Virus record (IMG/VR): IMGVR_UViG_3300021960_000547
Coordinates: 1 to 22,930 of that record
Reading direction: 5' to 3' (one strand)
DNA length: 22,930 bases
Source: a virus
Notes under the pieces: generated by a model
What the model was told of the DNA's origin: nothing
Seen by the model: the letters and a program-made list of their open reading frames with translations, nothing else
The model's database searches: none
Translations under genes and position numbers: made by a program
Shown here: piece after piece, positions 7,817 to 21,627 of the stretch
Position numbering within the stretch: position 1 is the stretch's first letter
Layout of the letters: each line of letters opens with the position of its first letter

Positions 7817-8125
7817 ATGCAAATAGTTGAAATAATCGCACCACTATCCGAAAAACAAATTTGGGCCAGAAGTGGCAAAAAAGTAGTTCGTAAGTATCGT
7901 TGCACAGCAGGTCAACGCAAAGGTCGTATCGTATCTAAGATAGGACAATGCTTTGCGGCACCTAATATCAAAGCAAAGATACGAATGAAGAAAACACGAG
8001 CAAGACTTGGCGCGAGAATGGCACGTAAAGCAAGAAGAACTAAAAGAGTAAATCCTGCGAGTATTAGAGTACAGAAGTTAAATAAACCAGCAGGAAAAAG
8101 AACGGTATTAAAGACAAGACGATGA
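7817..8125 (+). CDS. Highly basic DNA-binding-type protein, paralogue A
   Basis: A 102-aa protein in which about one third of residues are Lys or Arg and almost none are acidic after residue 12. The segment KVVRKYRCTAGQRKGRIV is shared with the next gene (KLVRKYRCTAGSRKGRIV), as is a second Cys 14 residues later, so the two are tandem duplicates. The pair of Cys might form a disulfide or half a metal site. The N-terminus MQIVEIIAPLSEK resembles the short leader peptides of its neighbours. Composition fits DNA condensation or neutralisation inside the head, as for T4 internal proteins; similar basic proteins occur in other marine T4-like phages (from memory). Its stop overlaps the next start (ATGA). 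Confidence 0.72.
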   Translation: MQIVEIIAPLSEKQIWARSGKKVVRKYRCTAGQRKGRIVSKIGQCFAAPNIKAKIRMKKTRARLGARMARKARRTKRVNPASIRVQKLNKPAGKRTVLKTRR

Positions 8126-8451
8126 GAGTAGCAGAACTATTAACTGAAGGTGCATTACAGATAATGGGGCGTAAAGGAAACAAACTCGTCCGTAAGTATA
8201 GATGCACAGCAGGTTCACGTAAAGGCAGAATTGTTGCTGACCCTGCAACTTGTAATAAACCTAAAAGAGTTAAGAGTTCGATTAACATTAAGAAAGCAAA
8301 GGCAAGAAGAGGCAGTGCAATGAAAGTTGCATCTGCAAGAACAAAGAGAGCAAGAGGTACAACACAACGCCTAACAAGAATTAACAAGTCAGGCAGACGT
8401 AACCTCAAAAACATTAAACCGAAGACACGTAGTAGAAAGAGGAAACGTTAA
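8122..8451 (+). CDS. Highly basic DNA-binding-type protein, paralogue B
   Basis: A 109-aa tandem paralogue of the previous gene with the same RKYRCTAG-x-RKGRIV core and conserved Cys pair, then an Arg/Lys-rich tail ending in KTRSRKRKR. It begins MRVAELLTEGA: LTE followed by G at residues 7-10 is a good match to the T4 gp21 cleavage rule, and the peptide aligns with the T4 capsid-targeting sequence (AELLTEG against QEFIAEA). The start overlaps the upstream stop (ATGA) and its own stop overlaps the next ATG (TAATG). The expected role is a DNA-binding internal head protein; this is inference. Confidence 0.72.
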   Translation: MRVAELLTEGALQIMGRKGNKLVRKYRCTAGSRKGRIVADPATCNKPKRVKSSINIKKAKARRGSAMKVASARTKRARGTTQRLTRINKSGRRNLKNIKPKTRSRKRKR

Positions 8452-19269: not shown

Positions 19270-19569
19270 ATGAAATGCGAACAAGGCGATATCGCTCATA
19301 TAGTCTTTTCTATTCGACCAGAGAACATTGGCCGCATTGTAAAAGTAAAAGAATACATAGGTAAATTTAATGCTGGAGAGCAATTCCAATTCAGAGGAAT
19401 GGCTTGTCAGTGTGCAGTCACAGATCATTTCTGGTGGATAGAAGCAGACGATATTAACACTTTGCTTGGACCAAGTCCACAAGCCTACATAGCAGATAGT
19501 TGGTTAGAACCAATTAAGAAGCCAAAAATCAAACAAAAAACTAAAAAAGTGGTTGACATCACCATATAA
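19270..19569 (+). CDS. Small SH3/KOW-like phage-type protein (99 aa)
   Basis: A 99-aa protein with the pattern GDIAHIVFSIRPENIGRIVK, an aromatic turn (HFWWIEAD) and the ending PQAYIADSWLEPI before a basic tail. This layout occurs in a common group of small bacterial/phage proteins of unknown function that I recall as beta-barrel, KOW-like domains; the function is not known. The -35 element of the tmRNA promoter lies inside its last codons. It has no clear RBS. Confidence 0.7.
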   Translation: MKCEQGDIAHIVFSIRPENIGRIVKVKEYIGKFNAGEQFQFRGMACQCAVTDHFWWIEADDINTLLGPSPQAYIADSWLEPIKKPKIKQKTKKVVDITI

Positions 19570-19581
19570 AGGTGCTATAAA
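19553..19581 (+). promoter_or_regulatory. sigma70-like promoter of the tmRNA gene
   Basis: TTGACA (19553-19558), 17-bp spacer, TATAAA (19576-19581). The predicted start near 19588 places the 5' end of the transcript just ahead of the tmRNA acceptor piece, as expected for a permuted gene. Confidence 0.82.
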
Positions 19582-19587
19582 TATACT

Positions 19588-19850
19588 TGTAACGTTGAAG
19601 CCAATTGAAGGCAGACAGGACGGGAGTTCAATTCTCCCCACCTCCACCATTCACTTAAAACACATTCACAGAGTGTGCTTTGAGGGGGTGATCGGGATCG
19701 ACTGGTGCAATAGAGAACGTGGAGTTACCGGTAGGCGATGACCGTAAATCAAGCAAAACGATAGACGCAAACGAAAACTTTGCTCTTGCGGCCTAATTAG
19801 TTAGGCTACGGGGTTGGCAACTTACCTGGCAACAGAAAAGTTGCACTTAT
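19588..19850 (+). ncRNA. ssrA: Circularly permuted two-piece tmRNA
   Basis: The gene order is reversed: acceptor piece first, then coding piece. The acceptor piece ends with T-stem GGGAG/CTCCC (19622-19638), T-loop TTCAATT, CACCTCC (19639-19645), A and CCA (19647-19649). A 34-nt intervening segment follows. The coding piece starts at 19684 with GGGGGTG, which pairs all seven bases with CACCTCC, then the D-loop-like ATCGGGATCGAC. The P2 strands (TGC, CAAT, AACGT at 19706-19720) pair with ACGTT, ATTG and GCA at 19592-19613. A small pseudoknot (CGGT/ACCG, GAT/ATC) precedes the tag frame at 19767-19796: GCA AAC GAA AAC TTT GCT CTT GCG GCC TAA, encoding ANENFALAA. A hairpin GCCTAA/TTAGGC holds the stop. 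tmRNA rescues stalled ribosomes and tags proteins for proteolysis. The 5' and 3' ends are approximate. Confidence 0.93.
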
Positions 19851-19877
19851 AACAGTATCAGTAGAAGGAACAATCAA

Positions 19878-20303
19878 ATGCAGTTTAAAGAGTTTTATTT
19901 CCACGCTATCGCCATCTGCATTGGCGTAGGATTTTTATCAAGTGTGGCACACGCAGAAGTTGTAGACGATCATTACAAATCTGTGATCAAGAAATTACCA
20001 TACATTACTCAAGTATGTGAAGATGTTGTTGTTGGCGGAGACAAAACGGGTGATACACTAACAGGTGCGATCATCGGCGGAGTCATTGGTAACAATGTAA
20101 CAAAGAATGTTGAAAACGGTGGAGCAGTTGGAGCATTACTTGGCGGTATTATTGGACACAATAATTCCAAAGCACAAAGTCGTGTAGAGACTCAATGCCG
20201 TAGAGAAACACGTTATAATGAAACAGTTGAAGAAGTTTACTCACATTCAACTGTAACATTTTATCATAATGGAAAGAAGTATTCTTTACGTTTTCAAAAA
20301 TAG
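19878..20303 (+). CDS. Secreted glycine-zipper (2TM) envelope protein
   Basis: A 141-aa protein with a signal peptide (MQFKEFYFHAIAICIGVGFL, cut likely after AHA near residue 26) followed by a glycine-zipper segment (TGAIIGGVIGNNV, then GGAVGALLGGIIGHN), typical of the 17-kDa antigen/SlyB-like envelope proteins of Proteobacteria. The end (VTFYHNGKKYSLRFQK) also fits that family. It would localise to the periplasm or outer membrane. An AAGGA RBS follows the tmRNA region by a short gap, so both may be in one transcript. A host-derived accessory gene is likely; a role in blocking superinfection or altering the envelope is a guess. Confidence 0.85.
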   Translation: MQFKEFYFHAIAICIGVGFLSSVAHAEVVDDHYKSVIKKLPYITQVCEDVVVGGDKTGDTLTGAIIGGVIGNNVTKNVENGGAVGALLGGIIGHNNSKAQSRVETQCRRETRYNETVEEVYSHSTVTFYHNGKKYSLRFQK

Positions 20304-20545: not shown

Positions 20546-20574
20546 TTCGAATAAGAAAAAGGAAACAATATAAA

Positions 20575-21627
20575 ATGAAAAAACTAACAATCTTGTTAGC
20601 CATCCTGTTTGGACTTACAACAGGTGCATTGGCTAACGACAAGACCCTTGAAGATAGAGTAGAGGCTCTTGAAAAGAGTATGCCAAACATTCCAAATGGC
20701 TTCTTCATTAATGGTGAAGTAGAAGGCTACTATGACGACAAAACCTATGATTCAGGTTGGGATTCACGAGGTGAACTACAACTGGGATTACAAACAGAAT
20801 TACCAAGCAATTCACTAAACATCGATTGGGCAGGTGCGTCAATGGTTTACGACACGCACTACTCATTGGACACATCACTAAACAACACTATCCAAGAAAA
20901 ACAAATTGGTGTTGGTAATGATACAGCAAGAATCTACTTTGGTGAGACTGATGCACAGAGAATGGGGTTCGCAAAAACTCCTAAGATCAGTGCACCACTT
21001 ATCTTCACAGAAACAAACTACAGAATTGACCACAGAGAAAAGACTGTGTTAACATTTGGTGGTTGGGAATACGACAATGAGTTTGACTTTGATTCATACA
21101 GAATTAAAAGGGACAAGCCTTGGGGTATTGCACTTGGTTGGGACAATGACGGTAACGTAGGTTACTACACTGGAACAGTAAACCTAATGGGATATGCTGA
21201 TGTTTCTTATATGCGTATCGATGCTGTTGAAGATACCGGCAAAGGTGACCAAGAAGGTTATGCTGTTGGTGGTTCATTACATAGATTTGGTGTTCCAATG
21301 CTATGGGGTGTTGAACTGTGGGACGACAAGAACACAGGTGCATACACAAAAGATGATCGTTTGGACTATGGTGTAATGTATAATGTAACTAATTCAACAT
21401 ATGTTACAGCACACAGAACTGAAAACGATGATCTTGGATATGATGGAAACTACTACGGTATTGTCCATAATATCTACACAAACTATGATCCTTCAAAGCG
21501 TCCTGACAAACAGGATGGTTTGGAAATGGGACTATACTTCCACGATAAAAGTGGAACAAACGTATATACTGGTGCGGCACACGCTGAAACACAACAGGTG
21601 TTGGCAAGCATTAGATATAAATTTTAG
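20575..21627 (+). CDS. Outer-membrane beta-barrel (porin-like) protein
   Basis: The start at ATG 20575 has an RBS (AAGGAAA) and yields a clear signal peptide (MKKLTILLAILFGLTTGALA, cut before ND). The mature protein starts with a short coiled-coil (DKTLEDRVEALEKSMPN), then a long series of alternating Tyr/Gly/Asp strands such as GEVEGYYDDKTYDSGW and GVPMLWGVELW, and ends in RYKF. A C-terminal Phe is the usual Bam signal of outer-membrane proteins. An upstream extension of the frame to 20440 lies in the tRNA and terminator and is rejected. The length (350 aa) fits a porin-type barrel. It is unusual in a phage: it may replace a host porin, change uptake or mask receptors. Confidence 0.88.
   Translation: MKKLTILLAILFGLTTGALANDKTLEDRVEALEKSMPNIPNGFFINGEVEGYYDDKTYDSGWDSRGELQLGLQTELPSNSLNIDWAGASMVYDTHYSLDTSLNNTIQEKQIGVGNDTARIYFGETDAQRMGFAKTPKISAPLIFTETNYRIDHREKTVLTFGGWEYDNEFDFDSYRIKRDKPWGIALGWDNDGNVGYYTGTVNLMGYADVSYMRIDAVEDTGKGDQEGYAVGGSLHRFGVPMLWGVELWDDKNTGAYTKDDRLDYGVMYNVTNSTYVTAHRTENDDLGYDGNYYGIVHNIYTNYDPSKRPDKQDGLEMGLYFHDKSGTNVYTGAAHAETQQVLASIRYKF

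Follow-up and report, generated by a model that had tools for sequence, protein, structure and literature searches.

A permuted, two-piece tmRNA gene in a phage contig and the intervening segment of its relatives

The question raised by this locus is whether a virus contig carries a working transfer-messenger RNA (tmRNA) gene in permuted form, that is, with the acceptor piece encoded upstream of the coding piece. The contig is the IMG/VR virus record IMGVR_UViG_3300021960_000547. The whole stretch of 22,930 bases was analysed and is called the window here. A working, phage-encoded two-piece tmRNA gene is the likely answer, and trans-translation with host SmpB and host proteases would be its most likely role.

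The tmRNA gene and its relatives

Evidence for the gene is provided by covariance-model searches. The Rfam model RF04321 (tmRNA_permuted) matches positions 19589-19796 of the plus strand with 112.7 bits (E value 1.2e-21; gathering cut-off 47) and is covered from end to end (model positions 1-213 of 213). The older model RF01850 (beta_tmRNA) matches positions 19540-19860 with 101.6 bits, above its cut-off of 84. The sequence-only reading had proposed a permuted tmRNA here, with an acceptor piece (T-arm, CACCTCC-A-CCA) ahead of the coding piece, a tag frame GCA..GCC TAA encoding ANENFALAA, and a sigma70-like promoter with a spacer of 17 nucleotides (nt) just upstream. The searches bear out the proposal, and each of these parts is present in the sequence (Table 1). 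The same reading held that the initial GGGGGTG of the coding piece pairs fully with CACCTCC. All 7 of the 7 pairs can indeed form, although one of them is a wobble, G3.U70.

When the region was compared with 50,697 phage records by nucleotide BLAST, no match was obtained at E 0.01. For this reason, relatives were gathered by pattern scans of 2.9 million viral contigs; labels such as L143 denote contigs of relatives that were compared with the window. A second scan, which used the start of the coding piece and was blind to the tag and to the length of the loop, returned at least 120 contigs. Covariation was assessed in 151 distinct relatives in which the acceptor piece had been picked by its own T-arm only, not by pairing.

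In 148 of these 151 relatives all 7 cross-piece acceptor pairs are formed, against a mean of 57 and a maximum of 72 when the partners were re-dealt 1000 times. The G3.U70 pair is constant (151 of 151, and the window), while pairs 5 and 6 co-vary among C-G, G-C, U-A and A-U. The hairpin of the precursor stem covaries as well, with 9 of 9 pairs in 84 relatives against a mean of 12 after re-dealing. Likewise, the arms of the joining helix change together (GUAAC/GUUAC, AUAAC/GUUAU, GCAAC/GUUGU), as does the T-loop 54/58 pair (G.G in 113 relatives, U.A in 37). The terminal pseudoknot block hardly varies in the subfamily; it is conserved, with too little variation for covariation to be assessed. The first pseudoknot stem of the window is aligned by Rfam. 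Judged by these comparisons, the tmRNA of the window is a real, selected RNA gene. It is one of a large family in aquatic phages.

The promoter is conserved too, at a fixed distance. Transcription from it would be expected to start at about 19588-19590, where the acceptor piece begins, about 7 nt beyond the end of the promoter. A near-consensus -35 element is found in 43 of the 44 distinct upstream regions of family members with the tag ANENFALAA. A stricter pattern, sought in the 100 nt that precede the acceptor T-arm, occurs in 40 of these 44 relatives, compared with 62 of 20000 random 100-nt pieces from the same loci. The promoter of the window is not listed by a generic promoter scan, because that scan accepts no base but T at the last -10 position.

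Some promoters of the family contain an inverted repeat between the -35 and -10 elements (ACATCTT..AAGATGT, or ACATGTTT..AAACGTGT), the arms of which differ; the spacer in the window (19559-19575) contains CACC..GGTG. The repeat was considered as an operator and rejected, since it is not general in the family.

The program ARAGORN calls permuted tmRNAs with the tag ANENFALAA in L151 and L154, which are syntenic with the window, and also in L145, L089 and L135. It misses many other members of the family, with and without long loops. Two-piece tmRNAs of phages are therefore probably under-annotated.

The family is varied in detail. Most relatives (for instance L091, L143 and L161) have the T-loop GGCAGUA or GGCGGUA instead of UUCRANU, unlike the window. 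In the tmRNAs of L085-L159, the modules (T-arm, joining helix, first pseudoknot region and 3' end) look reshuffled, as if by intragenic recombination. Some of these end in an intrinsic terminator, and others run into the next gene.

Table 1. Positions of the tmRNA gene, its parts and the following gene in the window
Feature	Position	Strand	Description
Promoter	19553-19581	+	-35 TTGACA 19553-19558; 17-nt spacer; -10 TATAAA 19576-19581
Acceptor piece	19589-19649	+	RF04321 alignment; 5' end predicted from promoter spacing and model start
Joining-helix strands	19589-19593 and 19724-19728		GUAAC paired with GUUAC
T-arm	19622-19638	+	canonical loop UUCAAUU
Acceptor strand	19639-19649	+	CACCUCC 19639-19645, A, CCA 19647-19649; from sequence
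Intervening segment	19650-19683	+	34 nt, predicted to be taken out of the precursor; hairpin adjoining the acceptor stem (fold)
Coding piece	19684-19846	+	3' end approximate; RF04321 and beta_tmRNA alignments, alignment of 45 relatives
Order within coding piece			GGGGGUG 19684-19690, D-loop AUCGGGAUCGAC, joining-helix strand, first pseudoknot region, tag frame, terminal pseudoknot
Tag frame	19767-19796	+	GCA AAC GAA AAC TTT GCT CTT GCG GCC TAA = ANENFALAA; resume Ala codon and stop
Probable terminal H-type pseudoknot	19812-19844	+	GUUG/CAAC with GCAACUU/AAGUUGC, read from sequence
Downstream gene	19878-20303	+	141-residue glycine-zipper protein (PF05433, 30.8 bits)

The tag and the role of the RNA

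The tag ANENFALAA was found in 75 of the 2.9 million viral contigs, in 72 cases in a permuted gene and in 3 in a one-piece gene. In 84,980 species genomes it occurs in 12 contigs, titled Spirochaetes, Clostridia and relatives, Victivallis, and Cloacimonadales; none of the 12 is titled Proteobacteria or Cyanobacteria. At least 8 of the 12 carry one-piece genes, as judged by an acceptor downstream of the tag. Because no proteobacterial contig is among the 12 and at least 8 are one-piece, this comparison suggests that the tag is not a plain copy of a known proteobacterial permuted tag. It seems to be phage-specific.

Some phage tags are very long. Examples are ANDKALDNVSFVNFGEQKDVRLSEDFALAA (30 residues), ANDNVSNVFSFVDFGSLKNYVNEDYALAA (29 residues) and ANAFKPEVTVPVSIFADAELVAA (23 residues), which are among those of L013, L019, L029, L047, L068, L212, L002 and L009.

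The structure, promoter, tag and conservation of the gene are apparent from comparison with its relatives, and its processing, charging, use of SmpB and proteolysis would follow the known biology of two-piece tmRNA. The process would start with the gene's own strong sigma70-type promoter, from which a precursor beginning at the acceptor piece would be made. In this precursor, the 34-nt segment would fold as a hairpin alongside the acceptor stem. The transfer RNA (tRNA) enzymes of the host, with RNase P acting at GGGGG and 3' processing at CCA, would then remove the intervening segment, and base pairing in the acceptor stem and in the joining helix would keep the acceptor and coding pieces together.

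A G3.U70 wobble is the identity signal for alanine, with which the acceptor piece would be charged. The two-piece RNA would next be bound by host SmpB and rescue ribosomes stalled on broken messenger RNA (mRNA) during infection, adding ANENFALAA to the unfinished protein. A tag ending in ALAA fits the protease ClpXP, so that this LAA-type end would lead to proteolysis.

Several points weigh against this interpretation. Folding of the single copy is not sufficient proof of the two-piece structure: the folding energy is modestly low (z score -3.1), and the cofold of the two pieces, at -16.9 kcal/mol against -11.3 +/- 3.6 kcal/mol when the acceptor pieces were shuffled, is not decisive alone. Most relatives have a longer D-loop than the window (AUCGGGAUCGAC), a difference that may explain why the tmRNA of the window is not called by ARAGORN. 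Finally, the support comes from sequence comparison, and the host's SmpB and protease would have to accept this RNA.

An alternative model is that tagging is redirected. The phage RNA would outcompete the tmRNA of the host, and proteins with the phage tag would be degraded by other rules, so that recycling is faster or phage proteins are spared. The seemingly phage-specific distribution of ANENFALAA, with its 75 viral contigs against 12 from species genomes, speaks for such a model, as do the dozens of other tags among the family members. However, the ordinary pattern A-N-(D/E)-N...LAA is kept. With an LAA end in 130 of the 142 readable tags of the family, the proteases involved would be the same for most of them. 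Redirected tagging is considered unlikely.

Less probable by a good deal is a decoy, in which the phage RNA would occupy SmpB or the alanyl-tRNA synthetase and so block trans-translation by the host. The RNA that could serve as a precedent has no tag frame. In the phage family the tag frame, the resume codon and the stop are kept, and none of them would be needed by a decoy. That the gene is a relic, a host ssrA captured through integration or recombination and drifting without function, can be dismissed almost entirely: fragments of ssrA can be picked up by phage genomes at attachment sites (PMC9004378), but this gene is complete and has its own promoter, compensatory changes occur in many phages, G3.U70 is invariant, and the same place is kept in syntenic phages, which already contradicts such a reading.

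The intervening segment in related phages

The intervening segment of the window is short and contains no open reading frame (ORF). Across the family its length varies from 25 to 266 nt, and in the tag-blind sample it reaches at least 140 nt in 26 of 105 cases. Many of the longer segments, or loops, appear to be coding. Of the distinct loops, 56 have at least 100 nt, and in 36 of these an ORF covers at least 75% of the loop. Among the 12 distinct loops of at least 180 nt, 11 contain such an ORF for a small protein, each with p<0.05 against dinucleotide shuffles. ORF-bearing loops were found in L143 (245 nt), L145, L098/L122, L178, L176, L198, L202, L204, L207, L209, L212, L264, L274 and the isolated phage Melnitz (L161:2078-2219), whose own 142-nt loop holds an unannotated ORF.

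Evidence that these frames are genes can be provided by their evolution and by their relatives. The ratio of nonsynonymous to synonymous differences (pN/pS) is mostly that of purifying selection in pairs of homologous loop ORFs (0.25 for L145/L204, 0.07 for L251/L267, 0.14 for L244/L272 and 0.21 for L140/L167), and is uninformative for the weakest and most distant pairs. Upstream of the start, 22 of 30 have a Shine-Dalgarno-like motif. The loop ORF of L176 encodes a Pfam DUF6356 protein (43.3 bits, cut-off 24.4), and that of L143 matches the whole DUF2061 profile with a score slightly below the cut-off. The protein of the L145 loop is 67% identical to a Melnitz protein encoded just upstream of ssrA.

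The acceptor stem, the precursor stem and the tag are intact in nearly all ORF-bearing members, and their genes are covered in full by Rfam models, with scores that reach the level of the window (113.9 bits in L145). Long-loop members were also considered as broken or misassembled tmRNAs; this was rejected, since the stem, the tag and the full-length model matches are kept and nested ORFs homologous to each other are found in several contigs.

An example for the exchange of the segment is L099, which is nearly the same phage as the window. The NrdB and cold-shock proteins of the two are 100% identical and the tmRNA pieces are nearly so, but the loop of L099 has 104 nt and is unrelated. Another is L143, which is syntenic with the window (NrdA 92%, NrdB 96% and the downstream gene 84% identical) and has a loop of 245 nt with an ORF for 68 residues. 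By these comparisons, the intervening slot is exchanged between close relatives.

Two arrangements of the stop codon occur. In 11 members with loops of at least 140 nt, the stop of the loop ORF is the TGA of a TGAT ahead of the coding piece. In other members, Melnitz included, the loop frame runs into the coding piece. There the frame continues past the processing site, and a cut by RNase P would therefore leave an mRNA without a stop codon. It may be speculated that the peptide of such an ORF is a target of the same tmRNA, which could give a feedback.

Very likely, then, the intervening segment is an exchangeable slot, often with a small gene nested in the tmRNA gene and driven by its promoter; some of the frames run through and would yield stop-less mRNA, with a possible feedback. 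The window would represent the slot in its empty state. If true, such nested genes would be a new gene architecture. A literature search, covering mainly open-access journal papers, yielded just the paper on Melnitz and found no description of protein genes in the intervening sequence of a permuted tmRNA.

Genomic surroundings and known systems

The tmRNA gene is followed by the gene for the 141-residue glycine-zipper protein (Table 1), whose sole matches among the 50,697 phage records are in four Melnitz genomes, at 51% identity. Because a scan between the two found no terminator-like site, the two genes are probably co-transcribed. Further on are two tRNA genes (Cys and Trp), and a cold-shock gene is nearby; the sequence-only reading had placed the tmRNA next to tRNAs and a cold-shock gene.

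Other genes of the window lie further away from this question. Positions 20572-21627 encode a protein of 351 residues that has a signal-peptide-like start and, by eye, the look of an outer-membrane barrel, with no Pfam or PHROG match. A class 3 lipase-like protein (PF01764, 73 bits), here in a phage, is encoded on the minus strand at 1739-2521. The adjacent, slightly overlapping genes at 7817-8125 and 8122-8451 encode basic, paralogous proteins that share the motif VRKYRCTAGxRKGRIV.

The NrdA protein of the window is closest to those of marine T4-like phages (S-PRM1 71%, Mosig 71%). The reading of a lytic T4-like phage is thus well founded as far as T4-like is concerned, since the nearest isolated relatives, Melnitz and Mosig, belong to that group; a lytic way of life does not follow from a 22.9-kilobase fragment. 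The statement that permuted ssrA is known from Alphaproteobacteria and some cyanobacteria was incomplete, since it also occurs in a betaproteobacterial lineage, and it is the older Rfam model of that lineage, RF01850, that matches the window. The occurrence in a phage is real but of a kind already reported, with 53 two-piece tmRNAs suggested in phage genomes, 50 of them aquatic, in the description of Melnitz (PMC9004378).

The family is far larger than the 79 bacteriophage sequences of the 2025 tmRNA database (PMC11915505), since a single scan returned at least 120 contigs. Two questions are made testable by it, namely whether phages use a tag of their own and whether a gene is expressed from an RNA segment specific to the precursor. 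The description of that database mentions a tRNA-Ala inside the intervening sequence of one permuted gene and a repetitive element inside that of another; protein-coding genes, as seen there in sister phages of the window, are not mentioned in the passages searched.

Among the Rfam permuted models (RF04321; RF01849, alpha; RF01850, beta; RF01851, cyano), beta_tmRNA is the older one reported for the window, while the ORF-bearing relatives match alpha_tmRNA. The phage family differs from these models in the T-loop, where 113 of the 151 relatives have G.G instead of U.A at 54/58.

The closest known systems are the SsrA genes annotated in the Methylophilales phage Melnitz (MZ577097) and in the Pelagibacter phage Mosig (MT647606). 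Both are permuted, consist of similar pieces and belong to marine T4-like phages, as does the window. They have the UAAACAC-type precursor stem common to most of the family, and the Melnitz ssrA promoter, TTGACA-17-TATAAA, is like that of the window. The tags differ, being ANDNYVPVDYALAA in Melnitz and AFLNGEDNFALAA in Mosig, as read by us. Melnitz also has an odd T-loop, GGCAGUA, and a 142-nt intervening loop, whereas in the window the T-loop is the canonical UUCAAUU and the intervening loop has 34 nt. With its related T4-like phage, conserved promoter and precursor stem, the window shares the features of the Melnitz and Mosig type. Two-piece tmRNA of phages is already known from these two (PMC9004378), and the window is a further case, a syntenic and promoter-driven addition to the family.
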